A program made the translations under genes and the position numbers. The notes below the pieces were generated by a model. The model was given only the letters and a program-made list of their open reading frames with translations. It had not been told where the DNA came from and did not search any database. From an uncultured Ignavibacteria bacterium (GTDB lineage Bacteria; Bacteroidota; Ignavibacteria; SZUA-365), in the NCBI GenBank assembly GCA_913061095.1, contig CAJXVM010000018.1:1-64000 (forward strand): a stretch of 64,000 nucleotides of DNA. The letters are read 5' to 3'. Every line of letters starts with the position of its first letter. The first letter of the stretch is position 1. This document shows, one piece after another, positions 13,492-29,434 of the stretch.

Positions 13492-14177
13492 GGTGATATC
13501 TCCTTATCCGTGTGGTGGGTGATTTCTCATAGTCCGACAGGTCTGTGCTTCGGATCTCCCTTCCGCTACGTCATGAACACCACCTCCTCTCGGTCCGCCG
13601 GAGGTGATGCATGCTGACGACATGCGCTCACGAATCGACGAACCGTATCAGCTGTTCGGATTCAGTGATACATGCGCACCGTCGGACTGATGCACCAGCC
13701 CGCACGCCGTTTCCCTGCGAGAGGGAACGGCACGCCAACACTTCTCATACACCGCCTAGAGAATTCTATCAGGCCTGGACACATCGTCCATGCCCGCGTG
13801 CTCCCATTGCATCACGCCGGGCCGTCCGACAGTCCGTATGTTGTAAAAGATCTCTATGTCCTGTTAAGACGAAAACACATTACGCATTTCATGCGATAAT
13901 GTCAAGCGGTGGAGATCCGCGGACATGCATCTTTTTTTCGATGGAACAGGGCACTGGAATCACATCCATCAGGAGTCATGGAATGTCCGGGCGCGCTTCG
14001 GGCTCAGCTTACAAAATTGTAAGCCATCTGTCAGGAACTTGTAATGCAGAGTTCACCTGTTCGAAAGGTGGACATTCTAGATTGGGGTGTACGTCCGGTG
14101 TATCACGCGAGCACCGGTACCGGGAAATCCCCTCTGTCTGCCTGATAGTATCCATCATTGAACGGATGAGGTTTTGC
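13492..14177. other. 686-bp intergenic region with a palindrome
   Basis: I see no convincing gene here; short reading frames lack ribosome sites and coding character. The sequence is less GC-rich near 13840-14060. An 18-bp inverted repeat at 14007-14024 (arms GCTTACAA and TTGTAAGC) is the clearest element. The region probably holds promoters for the divergent papain-fold gene and the SprB-like gene. Confidence 0.4.
14007..14024. promoter_or_regulatory. Inverted repeat GCTTACAA-AA-TTGTAAGC
   Basis: The perfect 8-bp arms surround AA, 153 bp before the start of the SprB-like adhesin. A related half site CTTGTAATG follows at about 14038. An operator is plausible but unproven. Confidence 0.4.
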
Positions 14178-17100
14178 ATGAGACGCGTTAGATTCTGTAT
14201 CCCATTCATGCTGCTGTTGTTCCTCACCTCGCCCCTTGTGCTCGCACAGCAGGTGTCTGTCGACTTCAAGCAGGCCGCGAACAACGACAAGCGTTATCAA
14301 CTTGGAAACGTGCGCTGGATTCAGTCCGTTCTCCAGAGAAACAATTCGATGTATTTCGAGGGGATGTCCGTCCCGCAGCGCATCATGCTGGACAATATTC
14401 CGAAGACTGCCGGAAATCAGCATGCACTGACATTCAGTCATCTCGCGACGAAAAATGGCATCCACGCCTATGATTATCTGACTTCGTACAAACAGGCGAA
14501 GGACGCGTCCATCGCGATCGCCGGTCCGAATGTGCTTGTCAACATGAATGAATGCGGCACGTCCATTGGTCCGCCACGCAGTCTCGGATCCACCTGTGCG
14601 GCACTCCATTCCGGGCCACACAGCCTGGAAGTGCACGTCCCGGACGTGATGTCCGGCGTGCTGTCGCATGACATCAACAAAAGCATGGCGAATTACGAAC
14701 AGGAGTACGGGAACCGCACGATTACCATATACGGCGACGCGCCCATCACAGCCGCCACGCTGACATTCAACGGGTACTCGACGCACAAGGACAAACTCGC
14801 GGAGTACACGCTGAGCTGGACGTCCAGTTCCAGCGTCATCCTCGTGGAGATGGCGGCCCATCTCGCGCTTGGCGTTGACGTACAGAACGCCGGCAGTGGC
14901 ATCGGATACGGCAGCGGGTTCGGCGCTGGCAGCATCAGCGGCGCGCCGTTTCATTTCAAGCTTGAGGAGCTCGACGGCAGACCGCTCGGCAGCAGGGACA
15001 ATCAGATCATGAGTGCCGCCATACGGCAGCGCATCGACTGCGCCGTTAGCGGTCCCACACCGGTCTGCGTCGGGACACAGAACACCTACACCTTCGGCAC
15101 CGCATTGAAAGGGTTGAGCTTCAGCTGGAACATCTCATCCAACAGCAGCGGTGCGTCCATCGTCGGATCGTCGACCGGGCAGTCCGTCATCGTCGACGCC
15201 GGAAACACGACAGGCGCGTACACGCTGACAGCCAAGGTCAGCGACGGTGTGCAGGTGATCACATGCACGACGAAGGTCACCGTATCCGGCATCACGGTCG
15301 CTGCGAGCGCCACGCCGATTCTCTGCAAGGGCGGCAGTTCCACGGTCACCGTTTCCGCCAGCGGCGGAACGGCACCGTATACCGGCGCGGGGAATTTCAG
15401 CAAAAAGGCGGGCACGTATACGTTCACCGTCACCGACGCGAACGGCTGCAGCGGGATGACGACCGTGAATGTCAGTGAGCCCTCGGAGCTGCAGGCGTTT
15501 TCGAGCGCCACGACCGTGAGCTGTTCCAACAGCATGGCAACGGTGGATGTCACCGCCAAGGGCGGGAAGCCGCCGTACAAGGGCATCGGGAGATACAAAC
15601 GCAGCGCCGGCACACACACGTTCACCGTCACCGATGATCTCGGATGCCAGAAACAGACATCCGTCACGGTCACATCCTCACCGACGCTGACCGTCGCCGC
15701 TTCCGCGACGCCGATCGCCTGCAATGGCGGAACGTCCACGGTGACGGTCTCCGCCGGGGGCGGCACGCCGCCCTTCACCGGTGTCGGCACGTTCACTCGG
15801 ACGGCGGGAACGTATTCATTCACCGTCACCGACGCGAACAACTGCAGCGGCACGGCGACGGTGACCATCACCGAGCCGCCGGCACTGACGGCATCGCTCA
15901 ACGCCACGGCCATCGGCTGCAATGGCGGGACCTCGTCGGTGACAATCGCGGCTTCCGGCGGCACACCTCCCTATTCCGGCACCGGCACGTTCACGAAGTC
16001 TGCCGGGACGTACACCTTCACCATCACGGACGCGAATAACTGCAGCGTCACAAAGTCCGTGACGATCAGTGAACCGCCGACGCTTTCGATCAGCGCGAGC
16101 GCCACGGCGATCAGCTGCAGCAACAGCAATTCCACCGTCACCGTCGCGGCCACGGGCGGAACGCCACCGTATACCGGCACCGGCACGTTCACGAAGGGCG
16201 GCGGGACGCACAGCTTCACCGTCACCGACGCGAACGGCTGCTCGGAAACAACGTCAATCACCATCACCGCTCCGTCGTCGCTCACAGCTTCGGCCACCGC
16301 GACGCCGATCGCCTGCAACGGCGGCACTTCCTCGGTGACCGTTTCGGCCACGGGCGGCACACCGCCCTACTCCGGCACCGGCACATTCAGCAAAACAGCC
16401 GGCACATACAATTTCACCGTCACCGATGCGAACAACTGCACGGCGACAACGTCGGTAACCGTTACCGAGCCATCGGTGCTCACCATCACCGCCGGCGCCT
16501 CGACTATTGCCTGCAACGGCGGCACTTCCACCGTGACGGTCGCGGCCTCCGGCGGCACACCGCCCTATTCCGGCACCGGTACGTTCACAAAAGCGGCCGG
16601 CACGCATACATTCACTGTGACTGATGCCAACAATTGCTCGGAGACAGCCACGGTCACCATTACGGAGCCGCAGGCGATCACGGTGACGGCCAGTGCATCA
16701 ACGATCGCCTGCAACGGCGGTACTTCCACCGTGACGGTCGCGGCCAGCGGCGGTACACCCCCCTACTCCGGCACCGGCACATTCACGAAATCCGCGGGCA
16801 CGCACACGTTTACCGTGACCGATGCCAACAACTGCACTGCCGCGACGTCTGTCACCATCAGCGAGCCGCCGGCGCTCACTGCAGCGGCCAACGCGACCGC
16901 GATTACGTGCAGCAACAGCAGTTCCACGGTCACCGTGACAGCTTCCGGCGGTACACCACCATACTCCGGCACCGGCACGTATACTCGCGGCGCCGGCACG
17001 CACAACTTCACCGTGACGGACGCCAATAACTGCGCAACGACGACCTCGGTGACCATCACGGCGCCCTCCTCACTGGTCGCGACCGCCAGCGCAACGGCGA

Positions 17101-20100
17101 TCCAGTGTTACGGCGGATCGTCCGCCGTCACCGTCGCCGCCTCCGGCGGCACGCCGCCGTACACGGGCACCGGCACATTCACGAAGCCGGCCGGAACATA
17201 CAGTTTCACCGTCACCGACGCGAACAGCTGCACGGCGACGACATCGGTGACCATCACCGACCCGACGCAGCTCAACGTTACGTCGAGCGCAACACCAATT
17301 CTCTGCAACGGAGATCTCTCCAGCATCACGGTGTCCGCCTCCGGCGGAACCCCGCCCTACTCCGGCACGGGAACGTTCGACAAAGCCGCGGGCACGCATA
17401 CGTTCACCGTCACCGACGCAAACAACTGCGCGGCCACGACATCGGTGAGCATCACCGAACCGCCTGCGCTCACGGCGTCCGTCAGCGCGACCGCCGTCAC
17501 CTGTGCGAACAGCAGTTCCACCGTCACCGTGACGGCCGCGGGCGGCACGCCGCCGTATGCCGGGACAGGCACATTCACGCGCAGCGGCGGGACGCATACA
17601 TTCATCGTCACGGACGCCAACAGCTGTGCCGACACAGTCTCCGTCACCATCAACGCCCCGTCGGCGATCACCGTGGCTGCGATCGCAACCAACATCACCT
17701 GCAACGGCGAAGATGCCATCGTAACGGTTTCCGCCACGGGCGGCACACCGCCGTACACGGGTACGGGGCAGTTCAGCCGAAAGGCGGGCACACACACGTT
17801 CACGGTGACGGACGCCAACAGCTGCAGCGGATCAGCAACCGTAACCATCACCGAGCCGCCCCCGCTCGATGCGACCGCAGGTGCGACACCGATCGCCTGC
17901 AACGGCGGCAGTTCGACGATCACCATCACCGCGAGCGGCGGCACCGGTCCGTACATCGGCACCGGCACATTCACCCGCGACGCGGGCACGCATTCCTTTA
18001 TCGTCACCGACGCGAACAGCTGTGCCGACACGGTCTCACTGACGATCAACGAGCCTCCGCAGCTCATCTGCTCAGTGAGTCCCCAGCAGATACTCTGCAA
18101 CGGCAGCACCGCCAAAGTCACTGTCAGCGCGAGTGGCGGCACGCCGCCTTACAGCGGAACGGGAACGTTCGACAAGGCGGCGGGAACCCATATTTTCACC
18201 GTGACCGATGATAACGGCTGTACCGATTCCGACACAATCACGCTCACCGAGCCGCCGCTGCTGGATGTTTCCTCCAGCGCAACGCCGATTCTCTGCAAGG
18301 GCGGCACGACCACGATAACGATCGCCGCCACCGGCGGAACGCAGCCGTACACCGGCACGGGCACGTTCACGCGCGGTGCGGGTACGTACAGTTTCACTGT
18401 CACGGACGACAACAACTGCTCGGCGACCACGACAATCACGATTACCGAGCCGCCGCTGCTGAATCCCTCCGCCGTCGCAACGCCGATTCTCTGCAAGGGG
18501 GAAGATGCCACGGTGACCGTCACGGCCGCGGGCGGCACTCCGCCCTACACCGGCACGGGCACGTTCACGCGCGGCGCGGGCACGTACAGTTTCACGGTTT
18601 CGGATGCGAACGGCTGTTCGGCATCCACGAGCATCACGATCACCGAACCACCGCTGCTCACGGTCACCGCCAACGCGCCACCGGTCGCCTGCAACGGCAT
18701 GCCGACGCTCGTCAGCGTGAGTGCATCCGGCGGAACGCCGCCGTACACCGGCACCGGATCATTCAGCCGCACCGCCGGCACCTACACGTTCACGGTCACC
18801 GACAACAACGGCTGCAGCGATTCGGCGACCATCACAATCACGGAGCCGCCGCTGCTGACCGCGTCGGCCAGCGCGACGCCGATCGCCTGCAACGGCGACA
18901 GCGCCACCGTGACCGTTTCGGCGGTCGGGGGCACGATGCCCTACACCGGCACGGGTACATTCCGGCGTGCCGCGGGAACGTACACCTTCGTCGTGACAGA
19001 CATCAACAGCTGCTCCGACACCGTGGCGATTACCATCGACGAGCCGCCACTGCTCATGGTCACTGTCACAGCGACACCGATTCTCTGCTTCGGCGAGACA
19101 TCGACCGTCACAGTGACGGCCTCCGGCGGCACCGGACCGTACATCGGCACGGGAACGTTCACCCGCACCTCCGGCACACACACCTTCACCGTGACGGACT
19201 CGAACGGCTGTACGGCCGCGAAGACAATCACCATCACTGAACCGCCCCTGCTCATCGCCTCATCGAACGCGCCCCCGATCCTCTGTCACGGCGGGAGCAC
19301 GACGATCACGGTCTATGCAATCGGCGGTACGCAGCCCTACAGCGGTACGGGAACCTTCACTCGCAGTGCCGGGACGCACAGCTTCATCGTCACCGACGCG
19401 AACGGCTGCCTCGACACTACGTCCATCACACTCGTCGATCCTCCGGAGCTCATCGCTTCCATCGACGCCACGCCGATTCTCTGCAACGGCGGGAGCTCCA
19501 CGATCACAGTGAGCGCCACTGGCGGCACGCCGCCGTACAGCGGCACAGGCACGTTCATCCGCGGCGCCGGCACACATACGTTCACCGTCAGGGATGCGAA
19601 CAACTGCGCGGAGACCGTCACGATCACCGTGACCGAACCGCCGCTGCTGGTGGTGATGGGGAGCGCGTCACCGGTCACCTGCGGTGTCGATACATCGACG
19701 ATCACGATCACGGCAACCGGCGGCACGCCGCCATACACGGGAACGGGGACCTTCAAGCGCATGCTCGGCACGTACACGTTTACCGTCACGGATTCCAACG
19801 GATGCACGGCATCGACGCAGGTAACGGTCAACGGTCCCCCGCCAGTCGTGATCAACGTCAATGCACCCCCGATCGACTGCTACGGTGGGTCTTCCACGAT
19901 CACCGTTTCCGCATCCGGCGGCACGCCGCCGTACAGCGGCGTGGGCACGTTCACGAAGGGCCCGGGCACGTACATCTTCACCGTCGTTGACGCGAACGGC
20001 TGCAAGGACAGTGACACCATCAACCTCGTCGAGCCGCCCGAGCTTTTTGTCTCCTCGGCCGCGACGCCGGTGCTCTGTCACGGCGACCTGAGCACCATCA

Positions 20101-21215
20101 CGGTGCTGGCGACCGGCGGCACGCCGCCGTATTCGGGGACGGGTACGTTCGTCCGCGGAGCGGGCAGTTACACCTTCACGGTCACCGACGCCAATGGCTG
20201 TACGAAAGTCACGACCGTCAACATTGACGAGCCGCCCGAGCTCGCCGCAAACGCCACGACCGGAGCAGTGAATTGCGGCCGTGACAGCACGGCGATCGTC
20301 GTCACGGCCTCCGGCGGCACGCCGCCCTATTCCGGCACGGGCACGTTCTACCGCACGCCGGGGGTGCATACGTTCATCGTGATGGATGCCAACGGCTGCG
20401 CCGACACGGTCACCACCGCGGTCAGCGGTCCGCCGCCTGTCTATGCCACCGCCGCGGCGACACCGATTCTCTGCAACGGCGGAAACACGCAGATCACCGT
20501 TTCGGCATACGGCGGCACGCCGCCGTACAGCGGAACCGGAGTGTTCACGCGCAAGGCCGGCACACATACCTTCGTCATCACCGACGCGAACGGCTGTACC
20601 GACACGGCGACCGTCGTCGTGAGCGAACCGCCCGCACTGAACGTCATCTGTTCTGTCGGCGAATGCATCAACGGCGTGCGCCAGGTCACCGCATCCGTCA
20701 GCGGCGGCACACCACCGTATGACTTCCAGTGGTCGTACAGTCCGCACAACGGACCGATGATCGACATCCCCTGCACGTTCTACGGAACGATTACGCTTCG
20801 CGTGCGGGACGCCAACTACAGCTCCAATGATCCGAACAGGTCCTCCTGCGAAGCGTTCTGCAGTCTCAATATCATCTCGAAAGTTCCGAACGGCGGTTCC
20901 AAGCGGGTGCGTCCCACAAACGATTACGCACTCCACGAGAACTTCCCCAATCCGTTCAATCCCTCCACGACGATCGAATACTTCGTCCCGGAGGCGAGCC
21001 ATGTGCGGCTGAGCGTCATCAACAAGCTCGGCCAGACCATCGCGACACTGGTTGACGAAGAGGTCCCCGCCGGCGGCCACTTCGCCACCTGGAATGCCGA
21101 GTCCGATCGCGGAGCGAAGGTTCCATCAGGCAGCTACTTCTATCGCATCCATGCGCGATCGCTGATCAGCGACAAACAGTTCGTCAGCGAGCGCATGATG
21201 CTGCTTCTGAAATAA
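14178..21215 (+). CDS. Giant SprB-like repeat adhesin with T9SS sorting domain
   Basis: A protein of 2,345 residues. The ATG at 14178 has GAGG six bases upstream; 14166 is less likely. A signal peptide (FCIPFMLLLFLTSPLVLAQ) leads to an N-terminal beta domain (about 25-285) containing GFGAGSISGAPFHFKLEELDG. An Ig/PKD-like domain (about 290-370) follows. Then come 27 regular repeats of about 66 residues from nt 15294 to 20640, pattern ATPIxCNGGxSTVTVSASGGTPPYxGTGTFxxxAGTYxFTVTDANxC, and one divergent unit (GGTPPYDFQWSYS). The end has NFPNPFNPSTTIEY and a GLY-type sorting domain. SprB in Flavobacterium is a T9SS-exported motile adhesin for gliding; gliding here is only an inference. Codon use is uniform, giving long antisense frames that are not genes. 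A strong terminator follows at 21244. Confidence 0.93.
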   Translation: MRRVRFCIPFMLLLFLTSPLVLAQQVSVDFKQAANNDKRYQLGNVRWIQSVLQRNNSMYFEGMSVPQRIMLDNIPKTAGNQHALTFSHLATKNGIHAYDYLTSYKQAKDASIAIAGPNVLVNMNECGTSIGPPRSLGSTCAALHSGPHSLEVHVPDVMSGVLSHDINKSMANYEQEYGNRTITIYGDAPITAATLTFNGYSTHKDKLAEYTLSWTSSSSVILVEMAAHLALGVDVQNAGSGIGYGSGFGAGSISGAPFHFKLEELDGRPLGSRDNQIMSAAIRQRIDCAVSGPTPVCVGTQNTYTFGTALKGLSFSWNISSNSSGASIVGSSTGQSVIVDAGNTTGAYTLTAKVSDGVQVITCTTKVTVSGITVAASATPILCKGGSSTVTVSASGGTAPYTGAGNFSKKAGTYTFTVTDANGCSGMTTVNVSEPSELQAFSSATTVSCSNSMATVDVTAKGGKPPYKGIGRYKRSAGTHTFTVTDDLGCQKQTSVTVTSSPTLTVAASATPIACNGGTSTVTVSAGGGTPPFTGVGTFTRTAGTYSFTVTDANNCSGTATVTITEPPALTASLNATAIGCNGGTSSVTIAASGGTPPYSGTGTFTKSAGTYTFTITDANNCSVTKSVTISEPPTLSISASATAISCSNSNSTVTVAATGGTPPYTGTGTFTKGGGTHSFTVTDANGCSETTSITITAPSSLTASATATPIACNGGTSSVTVSATGGTPPYSGTGTFSKTAGTYNFTVTDANNCTATTSVTVTEPSVLTITAGASTIACNGGTSTVTVAASGGTPPYSGTGTFTKAAGTHTFTVTDANNCSETATVTITEPQAITVTASASTIACNGGTSTVTVAASGGTPPYSGTGTFTKSAGTHTFTVTDANNCTAATSVTISEPPALTAAANATAITCSNSSSTVTVTASGGTPPYSGTGTYTRGAGTHNFTVTDANNCATTTSVTITAPSSLVATASATAIQCYGGSSAVTVAASGGTPPYTGTGTFTKPAGTYSFTVTDANSCTATTSVTITDPTQLNVTSSATPILCNGDLSSITVSASGGTPPYSGTGTFDKAAGTHTFTVTDANNCAATTSVSITEPPALTASVSATAVTCANSSSTVTVTAAGGTPPYAGTGTFTRSGGTHTFIVTDANSCADTVSVTINAPSAITVAAIATNITCNGEDAIVTVSATGGTPPYTGTGQFSRKAGTHTFTVTDANSCSGSATVTITEPPPLDATAGATPIACNGGSSTITITASGGTGPYIGTGTFTRDAGTHSFIVTDANSCADTVSLTINEPPQLICSVSPQQILCNGSTAKVTVSASGGTPPYSGTGTFDKAAGTHIFTVTDDNGCTDSDTITLTEPPLLDVSSSATPILCKGGTTTITIAATGGTQPYTGTGTFTRGAGTYSFTVTDDNNCSATTTITITEPPLLNPSAVATPILCKGEDATVTVTAAGGTPPYTGTGTFTRGAGTYSFTVSDANGCSASTSITITEPPLLTVTANAPPVACNGMPTLVSVSASGGTPPYTGTGSFSRTAGTYTFTVTDNNGCSDSATITITEPPLLTASASATPIACNGDSATVTVSAVGGTMPYTGTGTFRRAAGTYTFVVTDINSCSDTVAITIDEPPLLMVTVTATPILCFGETSTVTVTASGGTGPYIGTGTFTRTSGTHTFTVTDSNGCTAAKTITITEPPLLIASSNAPPILCHGGSTTITVYAIGGTQPYSGTGTFTRSAGTHSFIVTDANGCLDTTSITLVDPPELIASIDATPILCNGGSSTITVSATGGTPPYSGTGTFIRGAGTHTFTVRDANNCAETVTITVTEPPLLVVMGSASPVTCGVDTSTITITATGGTPPYTGTGTFKRMLGTYTFTVTDSNGCTASTQVTVNGPPPVVINVNAPPIDCYGGSSTITVSASGGTPPYSGVGTFTKGPGTYIFTVVDANGCKDSDTINLVEPPELFVSSAATPVLCHGDLSTITVLATGGTPPYSGTGTFVRGAGSYTFTVTDANGCTKVTTVNIDEPPELAANATTGAVNCGRDSTAIVVTASGGTPPYSGTGTFYRTPGVHTFIVMDANGCADTVTTAVSGPPPVYATAAATPILCNGGNTQITVSAYGGTPPYSGTGVFTRKAGTHTFVITDANGCTDTATVVVSEPPALNVICSVGECINGVRQVTASVSGGTPPYDFQWSYSPHNGPMIDIPCTFYGTITLRVRDANYSSNDPNRSSCEAFCSLNIISKVPNGGSKRVRPTNDYALHENFPNPFNPSTTIEYFVPEASHVRLSVINKLGQTIATLVDEEVPAGGHFATWNAESDRGAKVPSGSYFYRIHARSLISDKQFVSERMMLLLK
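15294..20640 (+). repeat. 27 tandem coding repeats of about 198 bp
   Basis: Each unit codes for about 66 residues and begins near (S/N)ATPI(L/A)C(N/K)GG. Units are recognisable at DNA level through repeated ggcggcacgccgccgta-like and gtcaccgacgcgaac-like blocks. Units carrying CSNS instead of CNGG (for example near 15510, 16110 and 16910) recur at intervals. Expansion and contraction by recombination are likely. Confidence 0.85.
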
Positions 21216-21278: not shown

Positions 21279-21579
21279 CCCCGGCCCCGCACAATCGCCT
21301 TCATTTCGGCTGTGTGAACCAGATTCGATGCAATTTCTGCAAAGAATCGGGCTGTATCTGAAAGATCCGGCCGCGAAAATCACGTACGTTCCCCGGCACA
21401 GCTTCCTTCTCACGTGTGAAATGCACGGAGCGGAGGCACAACGGATTTCGGGAGGGCGGAAACCGCCCCGCCGCACGGAGGCGGGGCGGTTTTCAAATGT
21501 GACGCGTATTCGGCATGTTAGGCGGGTGGACACCGGGACCGCTCGCCCTCGACGCGCCGCCACGAACACGGACATCCCT
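21279..21579 (+). other. 301-bp leader of the hybrid sensor gene with an attenuator-like hairpin
   Basis: There is no convincing gene. At 21460-21492 a 13-bp perfect stem (AAACCGCCCCGCC with GGCGGGGCGGTTT) is followed by TC and AAA, terminator-like but with a short T run, 88 bp before the start codon. It could be an attenuator, the end of a small RNA, or a second terminator for read-through. Confidence 0.45.
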
Positions 21580-24500
21580 ATGAATCCCAGACGCATCCCC
21601 GCCTTTCTCCTCGCCGTCATGCTGCTTTGCAGCGCCGGATCGGTGCAGCAGGCGGCTTCCCAGGTGCGCTTTGACCGCATCGGCCTCGGGCAGGGCCTGC
21701 CGTACAGCCGCGTCAGCAGTCTGCTGCAGGACAGCCGCGGATACATGTGGATCGGCACCACTTCCGGGCTCGGGCGCTGGGACGGTTACGATATGCGTGT
21801 CTTCCGCGCGAACCCCTCCGACAGCGCATCGCTGTCCAATTCCAGCATCTGGACGATGTATGAGGATCACGACGGTGTGCTCTGGATCGGCACCGACGGC
21901 GGCGGTCTCAACCGCTACGACGTCATGACGGAGCACTTCACCAGTTTCCGGCATGACGATCACAATCCCGCCTCGCTCTCCGCCGACCGCGTCAGCAGCG
22001 TGTTCGAAGACAACGCGCATCGGCTCTGGGTCGCAACCAGCGGCGGGGCGCTCGACCGCCTCGACCGCGGCAGCGGCGGCTTCACCCATCTCCACGGCGA
22101 CCGCATGCCCTATCCCTGCGGATGGGGCATCTACCAGCGCACCGTCGTGCCCCTTGAGGACGGTCGCTTCCTCATGACCAGCGTCGGCGCAGGAGCCGCC
22201 GTGCTCGATCCCGAAGAGCCCTGCGCCACGCGGGACTTCATGGGTGTGAACATCGACGACATCGGCTGCCCCAACATCCTCGATGCCACACGGGATTCCC
22301 GCGGCGACTTCTGGTTCGCCACCTCCGAGGGGCTTGTCCGCCTTGCCTCGGCATCCTCCTCCTTCATTCATTATCCCGTGGATGCGGACGGAACACGCGG
22401 CACCAGTGACGGAAATATCTACGACGTCTTCGAGGACAGCCGGGGCTTCATCTGGGTGGGAACCGCCGACGGGCTCGACCGCTACGATCCCGCGAGCGGC
22501 CGCTTCACGCATTTCAACCATGATCCTCTCGATCCCTTCAGCCTCGCCGACAACACCGTCTACACCATCGCAGAGGACCGCAGCGGAAACCTGTGGGTGG
22601 GCACGCATCGCGGCGTCTCCGTTCTCACTTCGCGGAACATGGAGCTGCTGCACTTCCGGCATACACTCGCCGCAGGCAGCCTCATCCACGACGACGTCTC
22701 CGCCTTCGCCGAAAGTCACGACGGCACGATCTGGGTGGGCACATACGGCGGCGGCATCTGCCGCCTCAATCCCGCCACGGGACGTTTCACCGCCCTGCGC
22801 GGGGGGCCGCAGGGAAAGCTCATCCTCAGCATGCTCGAAGACGGCGAGGGCCGGCTCTGGGTCGGTTCCTACGGCGACGGACTGCACCGGTACGATCCTG
22901 AGACACGCAGCTGGCGCGTGTTTACCGCCGATTTCGACGATCCTGAACGGCTGTCACACAATGACATCCACACGCTGCTCGCCGACGGCAATGACGGACT
23001 GTGGATCGGCACGAATTACGGTCTCAATCGCTTTGATTTCAACAGCGGTACATTCTCGCGCTACCTGCGGCAGGATCTCACGCTGCTGCAGCATCAGATC
23101 CGCAGCCTGTACGATGACGGTTCCCGGCTCTGGGTCGGATCGGTCGGCGGGCTGTACCTGCTCGACCGCGGCGGCACACTGCGAACGGATATCGGAACGG
23201 TGAACGGCTCCACCGACGCGCCGTTTCGCCAGAACATCTCCGCCCTGTACGAATCGGACGACGGCCGCCTGTGGATCGGCACAAACGGCGCGGGGCTCTA
23301 TACACTGCACGTCGACGACATGTCGTGGAAGCGGTACACCGTCCAGAGCGGGCTCGTCAGCGATGCGATCTGCGCGATTGCGAAGGAGCGGGACGGCGGA
23401 CTGTGGATCACCACCCACGGCGGACTCAGCGTCTTCGATGAACGGCGCGGCAGCTTCCGGAATTTCGACGCCCGCGACGGTCTGCTGAATATCCAGTTCA
23501 ACCCGGGTGCCGCCCTCCGCGCGTCCAACGGAGCGCTGTACTTCGGCGGCACCGACGGCATCACCTACCGTCCGTCGGTCGTCCCGCGGCGGCACGCATC
23601 CGCGCCGCCGGTGTACCTGACCGAACTCCGGATATGGAACCGGCGTGTTCATCCGGGAGAACAGGGAAGTCCTCTGCAGCGTCCACTGGCCGTGACTGAC
23701 GCGATCAAACTCGACGCCGACCAGAACATGATCACGATCACCTTCGCGGCCCTCGATTTCACCGCACCCGAGCGCAACCGGTACCGATACTTCCTCGACG
23801 GACTGCACGAACGGTGGATCGAGGCCGGCAACAGCCACAGCGCCACCTTCACGAACCTCGATCCCGGCAGCTACGTCTTTCGTGTCGTCGCCGCGAACAG
23901 CGCCGGCATCTGGAACCAGGAGGGCGCCACACTCGCCATCGAGGTGCTGCCGCCCTTCTGGCGCTCGACCTGGGCTTACGTGCTGTACGTCGTGCTGGGT
24001 GTGCTCGTCATTGGCGCGCTGATGCGTGTGCGCGAACGGCAGGTGCGCCTGCAGGAGCAGCTGGAGCGTGAACGCCTCGAGGCCGAGCAGCTGCACGAAC
24101 TCGACCACATGAAATCCAGCTTCTTCTCCAACATATCCCATGAATTCCGCACGCCGCTGACCCTCATCCTCGGACCGGCCGCGCAGATCGCACGCCGTTT
24201 CGACGATCCGTGGATCCGCCGCAAGACGGGCGTCATCCGCGACCATGCCGGACGCCTGCTGCAGCTGGTCAACCAGATCCTCGACCTCTCACGCCTCGAG
24301 GCGGGACAGATGCAGATCTCCCCTCGCCGCGGCGACATCATCACCGTGCTGCGCCGCGTCACCGATTCCTTCATCTCCCACGCGGAGGAGAAAGACATCG
24401 ACCTGCGTTTCGACAGCGCGGAGGAAGCCTGCGCCGCGCTGTTCGACCGCGAGTCCATCGAACAGGTCATGATGAACCTCCTTTCCAACGCCTTCCGCTT

Positions 24501-25797
24501 CACCGAGCCTGGCGGCCGCATCACCGTCACCGTGCGCTGTGACGTCACCAGCGCCGGGGAGGAGAAGGATCCCGCGCGGGGAACGCGCGATGGTCGTTCC
24601 ATGCTCGAGGTCGTCGTATCCGACACCGGCTGCGGCATTCCCTCCCAGCATCTGCCGCATGTGTTCGACCGCTATTATCAGGTGCACGCGCAGTCGTACG
24701 CCGGCGGTTCCGGCATCGGGCTCGCCCTCGCGCGGGAGCTGGTCCGCTATCACGGCGGCGAAATCCACGTCTCCAGTGAGGAGGGACAGGGCACGACGTT
24801 CACCTTCACGCTCCCGCTTTCCGGGCGGGACTCCGGCGGCATGGCGAATGCAAGGGAGAGTGAGAACGATGCTGACATCCACGCGGATGGGTTCGATCAT
24901 CCGCAGGCAGGTGAAGGATGGGAAGAGACAGAGATATCGGGATCGGCGTCCGCGCGGACCACACAGGGGGATGCGGAAGCGCCCGGGCAGGATACCGGCG
25001 TCCCTGCCAACGCTGACGGATCCGCACCGCACATCATCCTTCTCGTTGACGATCATGACGACCTGCGCGAATATATGCGAGAGATCCTCGAACCGGAGTA
25101 CCGCGTGCTTGAGGCATCCAACGGACGCGAGGGGATGGACATGGCGGTCGAGCATCTGCCCGACCTGATCATCACCGACGTCATGATGCCGGTGATGGAC
25201 GGTTTCGCACTCTGCCGTGCCATCCGCGCCGATGAGCGCAGCAGTCACATTCCCGTCGTCATGCTGACGGCACGCGGCGACGACCGCAGCCGCCACACCG
25301 GTCTTGAAGAGGGAGCGAACGACTACCTGACCAAGCCCTTCAATCCCGACGAACTGCTGCTGCGTGTGCGCAACCTGCTCTCGCTGCGCCGTTCGCTCGC
25401 GGAGAAATTCTCCGCCGTATCCGTCACCGAGGGCGGATTCACGCTCGACGAGAAACAGTACGTTTCGCAGGACCGGAAATTCCTCGATGCCGTCGTGGCT
25501 GTCATCGAAGAGCGTCTCGATGACGAATCCTTTTCCCCGAACGATCTCTTCCGCGAAATCGGCATGAGCCGCACGCAGTTTCAGCGCAAGATCAAGGCGC
25601 TCACCGGCATGTCGCCCAGCCGCTTCATCCGCTCGGTGCGCCTTGAGCGCGCACGGCAGATGCTCGAGCAGAACACCGGTACCGTCGCCGAAGTCGCCTA
25701 CGCCGTCGGTTTCAACAGCCAGTCCTATTTCACCACCTGTTTCAGGGAGCGCTTCGGCATGACGCCGGGGCAGGTGAAATCACAGTCCCCCACATAA
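21580..25797 (+). CDS. Hybrid two-component system sensor/AraC regulator (HTCS) with Reg_prop propeller
   Basis: A protein of 1,405 residues. The ATG at 21580 opens a signal peptide (IPAFLLAVMLLCSAGSVQQAASQ); no clear ribosome site is present. Order: about a dozen Reg_prop propeller units (about 30-680, xGxxWIGTxxGLxRYD), Y_Y_Y domain (about 705-790), membrane span (about 794-814), HisKA with H854 (NISHEFRTPLTLILG), HATPase_c (about 960-1085, MMNLLSNAFRF, DTGCGIP, SGIGLALARELV), linker, receiver with phosphoacceptor D1200 (LIITDVMMPVMDG) and K near 1249, and an AraC HTH_18 domain (about 1307-1400, VAEVAYAVGFNSQSYFTTCFRERFGMTPGQ). HTCS proteins in Bacteroidota usually sense glycans and switch on utilisation loci. 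No such locus is seen nearby, so its target is unknown. Confidence 0.95.
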   Translation: MNPRRIPAFLLAVMLLCSAGSVQQAASQVRFDRIGLGQGLPYSRVSSLLQDSRGYMWIGTTSGLGRWDGYDMRVFRANPSDSASLSNSSIWTMYEDHDGVLWIGTDGGGLNRYDVMTEHFTSFRHDDHNPASLSADRVSSVFEDNAHRLWVATSGGALDRLDRGSGGFTHLHGDRMPYPCGWGIYQRTVVPLEDGRFLMTSVGAGAAVLDPEEPCATRDFMGVNIDDIGCPNILDATRDSRGDFWFATSEGLVRLASASSSFIHYPVDADGTRGTSDGNIYDVFEDSRGFIWVGTADGLDRYDPASGRFTHFNHDPLDPFSLADNTVYTIAEDRSGNLWVGTHRGVSVLTSRNMELLHFRHTLAAGSLIHDDVSAFAESHDGTIWVGTYGGGICRLNPATGRFTALRGGPQGKLILSMLEDGEGRLWVGSYGDGLHRYDPETRSWRVFTADFDDPERLSHNDIHTLLADGNDGLWIGTNYGLNRFDFNSGTFSRYLRQDLTLLQHQIRSLYDDGSRLWVGSVGGLYLLDRGGTLRTDIGTVNGSTDAPFRQNISALYESDDGRLWIGTNGAGLYTLHVDDMSWKRYTVQSGLVSDAICAIAKERDGGLWITTHGGLSVFDERRGSFRNFDARDGLLNIQFNPGAALRASNGALYFGGTDGITYRPSVVPRRHASAPPVYLTELRIWNRRVHPGEQGSPLQRPLAVTDAIKLDADQNMITITFAALDFTAPERNRYRYFLDGLHERWIEAGNSHSATFTNLDPGSYVFRVVAANSAGIWNQEGATLAIEVLPPFWRSTWAYVLYVVLGVLVIGALMRVRERQVRLQEQLERERLEAEQLHELDHMKSSFFSNISHEFRTPLTLILGPAAQIARRFDDPWIRRKTGVIRDHAGRLLQLVNQILDLSRLEAGQMQISPRRGDIITVLRRVTDSFISHAEEKDIDLRFDSAEEACAALFDRESIEQVMMNLLSNAFRFTEPGGRITVTVRCDVTSAGEEKDPARGTRDGRSMLEVVVSDTGCGIPSQHLPHVFDRYYQVHAQSYAGGSGIGLALARELVRYHGGEIHVSSEEGQGTTFTFTLPLSGRDSGGMANARESENDADIHADGFDHPQAGEGWEETEISGSASARTTQGDAEAPGQDTGVPANADGSAPHIILLVDDHDDLREYMREILEPEYRVLEASNGREGMDMAVEHLPDLIITDVMMPVMDGFALCRAIRADERSSHIPVVMLTARGDDRSRHTGLEEGANDYLTKPFNPDELLLRVRNLLSLRRSLAEKFSAVSVTEGGFTLDEKQYVSQDRKFLDAVVAVIEERLDDESFSPNDLFREIGMSRTQFQRKIKALTGMSPSRFIRSVRLERARQMLEQNTGTVAEVAYAVGFNSQSYFTTCFRERFGMTPGQVKSQSPT

Positions 25798-26004: not shown

Positions 26005-28362
26005 TTATTTGGCCAGCAGCATGCGGCGCGTTTCGACCGTGGTGGCAGTGCGGAGCGTGTACATGTACACACCGCTCTGTGCGACCGTACCGGCAGCGTC
26101 GCGTCCGTTCCAGCGCACGCTGTGCGTTCCTTCAGCGAGGTCGCCGTCGACGAGTGTGGCGACGCGGCGGCCGAGCAGGTCATGCACGGTCAGCGTCACG
26201 GCACCGGATTCCGGCAGCGTGAAACGGATGACCGTGGACGGATTGAAGGGATTCGGGAAGTTCTGCTCGAGCACCGGCGATGACGGTGCCGCGGCGACGT
26301 CGTTCTTCGGCGCCGGGAACAGTGCGGGCACGGTCACCGTGGTGGTCATATTCGCATCGTCCGTCGCATCGTCCGTCGCGGTCACGATCAGCGACGCCGA
26401 GGCCGCCTTGACCTTGCGCAGTTCGCCGGTCAGCTCGAATTCGTAGTCGAACTTCGCGTAGTTGGGAAGCAGATCGAATTCGAAGTCATCACCATCCATG
26501 ACGGGCACTCCGCCGGCCGCCATGATCATGGACCAGAAGGCCTGCGGGTTCGGGGCTTCCACCGTCACGGCGTTCTGCAGGGGATGGAATTTCAGGCGGG
26601 GACGCTGTTCGACCATGTAGGTGACGACCGTGTTGTTGTCCACCATCGGGATGCTCATCACGGCACTGACGGAGGGATCGGGGTCACAGCCGTCGGTGGC
26701 GGAGAAGTCCACCTCGAAGTCGCCCTTGGTGGCGTTGATCTGCCTGACCAGGTCAAGCGACGCGTCGACCAGCGGGGCCGTGGTGTTGAGCACCGAGAAC
26801 AGCGTCACCGTGCCGCTGACCTCGCTGGCGCAGACGAGCAAGTGCTGACCGTTCGGACTGTCGGCGGCGTCGATGAAGATCAGTCCCTCCGGACCGAGAT
26901 CACCGATGGTATTCACGTTCGCGGGATCCTCGGGATCGAGCGTAAAGTCGCGGTTGTTGATGTAGGTCACATACACGGGCGCGGTCGGATCGCTGATGTC
27001 GTACACCATGATGCCGCCGATACGCTCGAGTCCGATGAAGGCATACACGCTGCCGCAGTATTCCGCCACGGCGATGGCCTCGGGCTCGGGTCCCTTTGCG
27101 TCGCTGCGGCCGTCGAAGTCATTCTCGTCATTGTCGGTGTTGAATTCCGTCGGAAGCAGCTGCTTGATCTTCTGCTCGATCTCGTCGCCGCTGTCCCAAA
27201 CCAGATTACCGTTCGCATCCCAGATCGAGAAGCTGCGTGCGCCGTAGGAATAGAGCTTGTCGTAGTCGCCGTCGTTGTCCGTGTCGCCGAGCGTGGTGGT
27301 GATGTTCAGGCGGCCGAGGTTGGCATCCTGCTGCAGCGTGGCGGCGTTCGGGAAGGCGGTGGGATCGAGCGTCAGGTCCTTGACACGCTCTTCCTCGCTG
27401 AATCCGTCATAATCACGGGCATCACCCTCGTTTGCGGAGACGATATAGGTGTTTCCACCGATCTCGACCGATGCGATCGCGTCCGGCTGATACATGCCGT
27501 ACACCGGCCAGGTGGTGATGTTGATGCCTGCGTCCCTGTCACTCGCGTCCAATGCGTTCACAGCGAGGCTGTGATCCTTGAAGCCCAGCGGGATGATGGC
27601 ACTGATCGTGGCGGAGCTGATGTCCACGACGGCCAGGGCATTGTTTTCCTGCATTGCCACCCAGGCGGTGTTGCCCTGCGTGGTGATGTATTCGGGTTCG
27701 AGGTCCTCGGAGACCGAGGCGCCCGGTCCGAAAATGCGCACACCGGCGTTCTGCAGCGCGGTTTTCTGGGCGTCGAAGGCATTGAAATCCGCCGTCGCAA
27801 CTGTGGCGGACAGGACGCCGCCGCTGATGTTGATCACGCTGATGGTTCCTTCGGGATCGACAGTGTAGTCATCGTTGGGCTCGCCCTCGTTTGCCACGAG
27901 CACATAACTGCCGTCTTCGGTGAACGTCAGCATGTCGGGCAGGATGCCGACAGTGACATCATTGAGAACCGTCCCGGACGCATCGAGAAAGTACACGCGT
28001 CCGGCGGAGTTAAACACATCGTTCTCAACCGCCACAGCGACGATACCGTTGTGCACGTCGACGCTGTTCGCGCCGCCGGCGTCGTTCCAGATGGCGGCGA
28101 AATTGATGGTCGACACAAGCATGGGCATTGCAGGATTGGCGATGGAGATGATATCCACCTCGGGTGCGTCGCCGCGCACCGAAAACAGCCGCTGTGAAGC
28201 GGGATCGTGGGCGACGATTTCCGCGGCGGACTCGTCAAGCACGCCGGTCTTGTATTCCCCGAGTACGGAAAGCTGTATCGACTGCGCGGACGCCTGGGCG
28301 GCCAGCAGCACTGTCAGAAGTATGGCAGGCAGGATGTAACGGACATGAGAAAACACCTTCAT
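26005..28362 (-). CDS. Choice-of-anchor I family secreted protein with T9SS sorting domain
   Basis: A protein of 785 residues. The ATG at 28362 has GGAGGAG four bases upstream. A signal peptide (YILPAILLTVLLAAQASAQ) is followed by the choice-of-anchor I propeller-like region (about 30-520). Signatures are VLGEYKTGVLDESAAEIVAHDPASQRLF, EGEPNDDYTVDPEGTISVI, NEGDARDYDGFSEEERVKD and FIGLERIGGIMVYDISDP. A beta region follows, then the sorting domain (about 695-785, LEQNFPNPFNPSTVIRF, DLLGRRVATLVDG). Related proteins are sometimes annotated as alkaline phosphatase-like, but no catalytic serine motif is visible, so I do not claim an enzyme. The upstream region is shared with the divergent carbonic anhydrase gene and carries the triple palindrome. 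Confidence 0.88.
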   Translation of the reverse strand: MKVFSHVRYILPAILLTVLLAAQASAQSIQLSVLGEYKTGVLDESAAEIVAHDPASQRLFSVRGDAPEVDIISIANPAMPMLVSTINFAAIWNDAGGANSVDVHNGIVAVAVENDVFNSAGRVYFLDASGTVLNDVTVGILPDMLTFTEDGSYVLVANEGEPNDDYTVDPEGTISVINISGGVLSATVATADFNAFDAQKTALQNAGVRIFGPGASVSEDLEPEYITTQGNTAWVAMQENNALAVVDISSATISAIIPLGFKDHSLAVNALDASDRDAGINITTWPVYGMYQPDAIASVEIGGNTYIVSANEGDARDYDGFSEEERVKDLTLDPTAFPNAATLQQDANLGRLNITTTLGDTDNDGDYDKLYSYGARSFSIWDANGNLVWDSGDEIEQKIKQLLPTEFNTDNDENDFDGRSDAKGPEPEAIAVAEYCGSVYAFIGLERIGGIMVYDISDPTAPVYVTYINNRDFTLDPEDPANVNTIGDLGPEGLIFIDAADSPNGQHLLVCASEVSGTVTLFSVLNTTAPLVDASLDLVRQINATKGDFEVDFSATDGCDPDPSVSAVMSIPMVDNNTVVTYMVEQRPRLKFHPLQNAVTVEAPNPQAFWSMIMAAGGVPVMDGDDFEFDLLPNYAKFDYEFELTGELRKVKAASASLIVTATDDATDDANMTTTVTVPALFPAPKNDVAAAPSSPVLEQNFPNPFNPSTVIRFTLPESGAVTLTVHDLLGRRVATLVDGDLAEGTHSVRWNGRDAAGTVAQSGVYMYTLRTATTVETRRMLLAK

Positions 28363-28801
28363 GAGGCTCCTCCGAATGAATTTTGGATGGGTTAGATCCG
28401 CAATTTCGGCACTGTCCTGTTAGCGCGCTGTTTGATTTGGATTAAATCCACAAAAATGCCTCCCATCCTGAAGGGCACGCGCAATATCGCCGGCTCCGGC
28501 ATCGCACACGCACCCGGCATCCGGGTGTGCCACCATACCGAACATCCTCGATGATGATGCAGAATTCCCGGATCCTACAGCATACACTGTCAGAATGGCA
28601 TTTTTACCCGGGTAAAATTGGGGTTTTACCCGGGTATAATTGCATTTTACCCGGGTAATAATATGCCAATCATGATTCTCCGCGGGAGAAACAGTGGACG
28701 CCCCAACGAGATGTGTATGTTTGTGTGGATGATTTCGCAGATGGCTTGTTTCCTGCGTACATTAGTGTGACCCATCACCTGTGACATTCGACAGGAAGCA
28801 C
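28363..28801. other. 439-bp divergent intergenic region
   Basis: No gene is seen. Besides the triple ACCCGGGT array at 28602-28660, it has the 13-bp palindrome TGGATTAAATCCA at 28438-28450. Local AT-rich stretches suit promoters for both flanking genes. Confidence 0.5.
28602..28660. promoter_or_regulatory. Array of three palindromic operators, TTTTACCCGGGTAAAA type
   Basis: The copies are TTTTACCCGGGTAAAA (28602-28617), TTTTACCCGGGTATAA (28624-28639) and TTTTACCCGGGTAATA (28645-28660). Their centres are 22 and 21 bp apart, about two helical turns, so bound proteins would lie on one face of the DNA. The array ends 142 bp before the carbonic anhydrase start and 240 bp from the divergent gene. 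A dimeric repressor or activator is likely, though I cannot name it. Confidence 0.75.
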
Positions 28802-29434
28802 ATGATTCCCGCCCATGACGCACTGGAAAGACTCAAGGAAGGAAACCGCCGTTTCGTGGCGGGCGAACGTCATATCGATGCCGATGCGCTCGCCCTTAGG
28901 CGTGCCGAGCTGACGGAGGGACAGCAGCCGTTCGCCGTCATTCTCGGATGCTCGGATTCGCGCGTTCCGGCTGAGATCGTATTCGACCAGGGCCTCGGCG
29001 ATCTGTTCGTCATCCGTGTTGCAGGAAACATTGTCGCTCCCTCGCTGGTGGGCAGCGTGGAATTCGCCGCCGCCGAATTCGGTACGCGTCTCGTCGTCGT
29101 CATGGGACACAGCCGCTGCGGCGCGGTAACGGCAACGATTGAAGACATCCTCCATCCTTCCGATGCGCATTCGAAAAACCTGCGTGCCATTGTCGACCGC
29201 GTGCGTCCATCGGTCGAAACGCTCATGGATACGGATCTCCGGCATGACCGTGAAGCACTGATCCACGCGGCCGTCCGTGCGAATGTCCGCGTCTCCGCCG
29301 ATCACCTCCGCCACGGTTCCGTAGTGCTGGAAGAGCTGATCCGGGAGGACAGACTCCTCGTCGTGGGTGCGGAGTATTCCCTTGAGACAGGTGTGGTCGA
29401 TTTCTTCGATGGTGTGCCGGAGGAGAACCGGTGA
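28802..29434 (+). CDS. Beta-class carbonic anhydrase
   Basis: A protein of 210 residues. The ATG at 28802 has AGGA five bases upstream; an in-frame GTG at 28781 is less likely. It interconverts CO2 and bicarbonate with a zinc ion in the cytoplasm. Zinc ligands are Cys50 and Asp52 (ILGCSDSRVPAEIVFDQGLGDLFVIR), His103 and Cys106 (VMGHSRCGAV), in the normal beta-CA spacing, with the conserved Asp52-Arg54 dyad. Length is usual for bacterial beta-CA. No signal peptide is present. The gene stands alone behind the triple palindrome array, so a dedicated regulator is likely. A REP-like palindrome follows at 29441. Confidence 0.95.
   Translation: MIPAHDALERLKEGNRRFVAGERHIDADALALRRAELTEGQQPFAVILGCSDSRVPAEIVFDQGLGDLFVIRVAGNIVAPSLVGSVEFAAAEFGTRLVVVMGHSRCGAVTATIEDILHPSDAHSKNLRAIVDRVRPSVETLMDTDLRHDREALIHAAVRANVRVSADHLRHGSVVLEELIREDRLLVVGAEYSLETGVVDFFDGVPEENR

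Follow-up and report, generated by a model that had tools for sequence, protein, structure and literature searches.

The window analysed here, 64,000 nucleotides from an uncultured Ignavibacteria bacterium, carries a short row of palindromes between a gene for a beta-carbonic anhydrase and one for a choice-of-anchor I surface protein. The question raised by this locus is which protein reads the palindromes, and what it does there.

The palindrome array and its flanking genes

There are three palindromes at positions 28600–28662 (TTTTTACCCGGGTAAAA, TTTTACCCGGGTATAA and TTTTACCCGGGTAAT). They share the core ACCCGGGT, which starts at 28606, 28628 and 28649, so that the core-to-core distance is 22 and then 21 bp. 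The original prediction of three near-identical palindromes at these distances is borne out, and so is their position between the two genes. The carbonic anhydrase gene (28802–29434, plus strand; Pfam Pro_CA, E 1.4e-39) is a candidate target, its ATG lying about 139 bp from the end of the array. The choice-of-anchor I gene (26005–28362, minus strand; choice_anch_I, E 2.2e-145) is a candidate divergent target, with its ATG about 237 bp from the array. With up to two mismatches TTACCCGGGTAA has four matches in the 64 kb against 0.76 expected, a count reached in one of 100 shuffles, and three of the four fall inside 55 bp.

Other features of the window and its genome are recorded here for completeness. 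In the stretch that separates the choice-of-anchor I gene from the array is another inverted repeat, GCACACGCACCCGGCATCCGGGTGTGC (28504–28530); it could form a hairpin and is not of the DUF2239 type of site described below. Rfam covariance models gave no match at the gathering score anywhere in the window. Further upstream are a large 2534-residue repeat protein with dozens of units like TGGTPPYTGTGTF, which looks like a surface adhesin (13611–21215), and a hybrid two-component protein in one piece, comprising Reg_prop, Y_Y_Y, HisKA, HATPase, receiver and AraC-type HTH domains (21328–25797). The genome has a second carbonic anhydrase homologue (G000:C8:28396–28968, L062), where the match crosses one in-frame TAA.

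Arrays of the same kind in the genome

The original prediction called for a genome-wide search with the motif, and this search finds 20 more arrays of the same kind. TACCCGGGTA has 64 sites in the genome against 2 for the control, and TTTACCCGGGTA has 83 matches against none for its reversed control. Read out with the scoring matrix described below, the genome (G000) contains 73 sites in 21 arrays of 2 to 7 sites each. The 52 spacings within these arrays are of two kinds only, 45 being 21–22 bp and seven 30–32 bp; because all of them equal two or three helical turns, neighbouring sites lie on the same side of the helix. The proposed cooperative binding of a dimeric regulator on one helix face is consistent with all 52, although the binding itself is something that we infer. 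Three arrays (L019, L017 and L026) consist of tandem copies of one 22-bp unit with identical spacers.

All 21 arrays are intergenic, nine between divergent, nine between tandem and three between convergent genes, as judged from gene calls that outside the window are our own rough ones. Promoters are expected in the regions that hold 18 of the 21. The three convergent arrays, one of which is conserved in a sister species (L021/L035), do not fit a promoter operator. The neighbours of the arrays include DUF2239, a Na+/H+ exchanger, phosphofructokinase, an ion channel with TrkA domains, a YceI protein, an OmpA protein, an operon with DsrC- and DsrE-like proteins, nitric oxide reductase (convergent) and surface proteins with secretion-tail domains. 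These genes have no obvious pathway in common.

Sister species and the class

The genomes used for comparison (G000–G184) are mostly draft assemblies. Among 40 relatives the 12-mer sites are numerous only in the congener G004, which has 12 arrays. Four of these are at places orthologous to those of G000: the window array (L040 in G004), which is kept between the same two genes, and the pairs L016/L041, L021/L035 and L029/L042. Coding DNA around the four shared loci is only 70–84% identical, and the intergenic flank of the window array is mostly unalignable between the two species, with the palindromes retained. In L027/L037 and L019/L054 the gene neighbourhoods of the G000 and G004 arrays are related but the intergenic gaps that hold them are not the same, as though arrays could emerge or move within a region. 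At an rRNA methyltransferase locus of G004 a small toxin-antitoxin-like pair of genes adjoins the array (L035, 3310–3932); in G000 the genes at this locus are only about 90 bp apart.

In three further congeners (G001, G002 and G003) there is no array before the orthologous carbonic anhydrase genes. The expectation that the array would be conserved there thus holds in G004 and fails in these three, which makes the carbonic anhydrase array a recent addition to a broader set of candidate targets. G001 and G003 have one array per genome, situated 34–46 bp upstream of DUF2239, the same gene as at L016 and L041. In G000 this gene is on the minus strand (G000:C2:325595–326167; L016, 3369–3992), and residues 9–199 of its 207-residue product match PF09998 with 250.2 bits against a cut-off of 25, which places the gene behind the L016 array in this family.

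The association with DUF2239 extends to the class as a whole. DUF2239 is present in seven of 149 genomes, and a palindrome pair is found directly upstream in all seven, in G008 as the drifted version ATCCGGAT/ATCCGGGT. A strict paired pattern matches four of the 149 genomes, each of them DUF2239-positive, and none of the 142 negatives (hypergeometric p about 2e-6). We also ran a sequence-only operator profile over 33 genomes, counting matches on both strands. It has 138 matches in G000, 55 in G004 and 4–6 in each of G001, G002, G003 and G009. Of ten DUF2239-negative relatives nine have none; the exception is G006, where the site that was read falls inside a coding frame. Carriers of DUF2239 in other phyla have 0–9 matches. 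These low numbers suggest that near self-only control is the common state, and that the 73 sites result from an expansion in the lineage of G000 and G004.

The proposed DUF2239 operator in other phyla

A scan of 84,980 species gave at least 582 DUF2239 relatives among the matches listed, and 80 loci were kept from these at least 582, representing at least 10 phyla going by record titles. The pattern ttttACCCGGGTaatATTGAC-N-atTTTACCCGGGTaaaAt recurs upstream of DUF2239. An exact WYCCGGRT pair, 24–33 bp apart, is present upstream in 31 of the 80 loci, whereas the count expected from dinucleotide shuffles is 0.00 and none of 77 downstream controls has such a pair; when one mismatch per site is allowed the pair is found in 57 of the 80, against 2.25 in the shuffles and 4 of the 77 controls. 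A matrix site of at least 16 bits lies directly upstream of DUF2239 in 78 of the 80 loci; 55 of the 80 had helped to build the matrix.

The usual arrangement at DUF2239 is two palindromes about 28 bp apart. At this spacing the consensus holds a promoter, TTGACA-N17-TAaAAt, with the two sites overlaying its -35 and -10 elements, which is the anatomy of an autorepressor. The two loci of the 80 with no site directly upstream are L127 and L145, where the pair is 1.2 kb off and stands before neighbour genes rather than directly before DUF2239. Apart from the upstream sites, the 80 loci contain just the distant pairs of three Bradyrhizobium loci (L127, L144 and L145), which lie at 1.2 kb and precede a GIY-YIG-like gene (named by inspection; no Pfam match). 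In L127 the site also serves as the upstream region of a divergent neighbour, and DUF2239 is separated from it by an opposite-strand gene that by eye is glutathione-S-transferase-like. The pairs of L127 and L145, away from DUF2239 and in L127 with a gene between, indicate that the site is more than a piece of the DUF2239 promoter.

Extra targets in carriers of other phyla are few, namely an alpha/beta hydrolase in Kaistia terrae and the GIY-YIG-like gene in Kaistia defluvii and a Bradyrhizobium. A strict pattern applied to such carriers recovers only about a third of the operators known from these loci, and minor regulons in other genomes may have escaped it. In Rhizobiales a 111-residue GIY-YIG-like protein with no Pfam match adjoins DUF2239 or has its operator (L139, L127, L144, L145, L185 and L186), and may be an old DUF2239 target. 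When the genes next to DUF2239 were compared between phyla in search of conserved ones, the large clusters were discarded because they appeared to be antisense frames or genes of particular lineages.

The scoring matrix was made from DUF2239 operators of other phyla, with no sequence from Ignavibacteria. Scanned over the 64-kb window, it ranks the three sites of the array first: ATTTTTACCCGGGTAAAATT (28600–28619, 32.3 bits), GGTTTTACCCGGGTATAATT (28622–28641, 26.4 bits, its centre 22 bp from that of the first) and CATTTTACCCGGGTAATAAT (28643–28662, 29.1 bits, its centre 21 bp from that of the second), all three listed without a strand. The next best place in the window reaches 10.1 bits. Because this is 16 bits below the weakest of the three sites, the array is no chance cluster, and because a cross-phylum matrix puts all three first by this distance, they match the DUF2239 operator.

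The DUF2239 protein

From its N-terminus DUF2239 consists of an alpha/beta domain, a disordered linker whose GRP core is AT-hook-like, the segment REVTLLPRHWxWL..QPGxASVxLRxLV and a helical C-terminus. Over 60 DUF2239 sequences GRP and REvTLLPRHW show little or no variation, in keeping with an operator that hardly differs between phyla. The AlphaFold monomer has a mean pLDDT of 85.5, with helices predicted at residues 105–112 and 117–153 after the extended REVTLL segment. This predicted order of strand, helix and helix resembles that of a ribbon-helix-helix dimer; the PDB, searched by sequence and by fold, gave no usable match, and an hhalign comparison of DUF2239 with a two-sequence ribbon-helix-helix-like alignment gave none.

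MetJ, Arc and CopG are autoregulated dimeric ribbon-helix-helix repressors with paired or tandem palindromic operators. The system described here is like them in its palindromic sites, in helically phased tandem copies and in the overlap with a promoter, as well as in a short, predicted strand-helix-helix-like segment with invariant residues. DUF2239 differs from them in having the GRP motif in a disordered linker and N-terminal and C-terminal domains of its own, and its operators are a 28-bp pair at its own promoter and mostly 21–22 bp arrays elsewhere. The Pfam entry (PF09998, an uncharacterised protein conserved in bacteria) gives no function, operator or regulon; DUF2239, COG3644 and PF09998 are not named in the open-access literature that we searched, and open-access papers containing TACCCGGGTA look unrelated, judging by their titles.

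Alternative explanations

The original prediction had proposed a regulator dedicated to this carbonic anhydrase and concerned with CO2, pH or growth phase. Apart from the presence of the array before the gene in G004 as well, the results go against it: twenty further arrays stand beside unrelated genes, three congeners lack the array before the orthologous genes, and the element follows the DUF2239 gene. The analysis gave no indication that the signal is CO2 or pH, and we consider such a dedicated regulator very improbable. A dispersed intergenic repeat of the REP/BIME or minisatellite-like kind, spread without regulatory function, is only slightly better placed. The tandem 22-bp units with identical spacers do suggest local duplication, and some arrays of G000 and G004 are at non-matching places in related regions, but a mere repeat is hard to reconcile with spacings confined to two or three helical turns, with a match to the DUF2239 operator of other phyla and with palindromes retained while their flanks diverged. 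No RAYT (Y1 transposase) gene was found among the array neighbours scanned.

The operator could instead be read by some other transcription factor, with DUF2239 as just its conserved target. One example is the LacI family, whose operators have a central CG, as the sites here do. Five congeners have a single LacI gene each, be the number of sites 2 or 73, so gene number is not in step with the arrays. The element follows DUF2239 over at least 10 phyla, as autoregulation predicts. We regard this as improbable, although the arrays may be read by another factor that always accompanies DUF2239. The strongest competitor, which we nevertheless think unlikely, retains DUF2239 as the bound protein and supposes that the arrays act mainly on chromosome structure, much as Noc or parS clusters do, by anchoring DNA or associating with the nucleoid, and not as operators of their neighbours. 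The distribution of 21 arrays over many contigs, all intergenic and beside unrelated genes in every orientation, would suit this, as would the conservation of one convergent array in G004. Noc of Bacillus binds NBS sites (ATTTCCCGGGAAAT), which are dispersed palindromes, like those here, with a CCCGGG core. Unlike NBS sites, the arrays here are phased and all intergenic, and the genome has no extra ParB-family protein: PF02195 has one match in each genome that has any and none in G003, the count being the same in congeners with and without many arrays. Most carriers in other phyla have, besides the pair at the DUF2239 promoter, no more than a few sites, and the placing of 18 of the 21 arrays in promoter-containing regions also argues for operators.

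A model for DUF2239

We therefore favour the explanation that DUF2239 is an autoregulated DNA-binding protein and that the arrays are operators of this protein, which have grown in number in this lineage; from the sequence comparisons we put the probability of this at about 0.8. The window array would then be three phased binding sites for a protein encoded elsewhere in the same genome. Dimers of DUF2239 would bind a 16–20 bp palindrome made up of ACCCGGGT and T-rich and A-rich flanks, and adjacent dimers, on the same helix face, would cooperate in binding. With sites over the -35 and -10 elements of its own promoter, DUF2239 would shut off its own synthesis, and in most bacteria its own gene would be nearly its sole detectable target. 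In the Ignavibacteria-like lineage the operator would have spread to 21 intergenic loci, partly through tandem duplication of 22-bp units. Between the carbonic anhydrase and choice-of-anchor I genes, bound DUF2239 would modulate one or both genes, most likely as a repressor, by analogy with the geometry at its own promoter.

The broader proposal is that DUF2239 constitutes a new family of transcription factors whose operator is nearly unchanged from Planctomycetota to Pseudomonadota, which normally control little but themselves, and one of which has become a global regulator in a single Ignavibacteria lineage by multiplying helically phased arrays. We hold this to be probable, at a lower level of confidence than the autoregulation itself. 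A family found in hundreds of species of at least 10 phyla would gain a likely function, as a DNA-binding regulator that controls its own gene, and an operator that can be tested. The proposal would also provide a clean natural case of the birth of a regulon, from near self-only control in most carriers, through 2 sites in sister species, to the 73 sites in 21 arrays found here.
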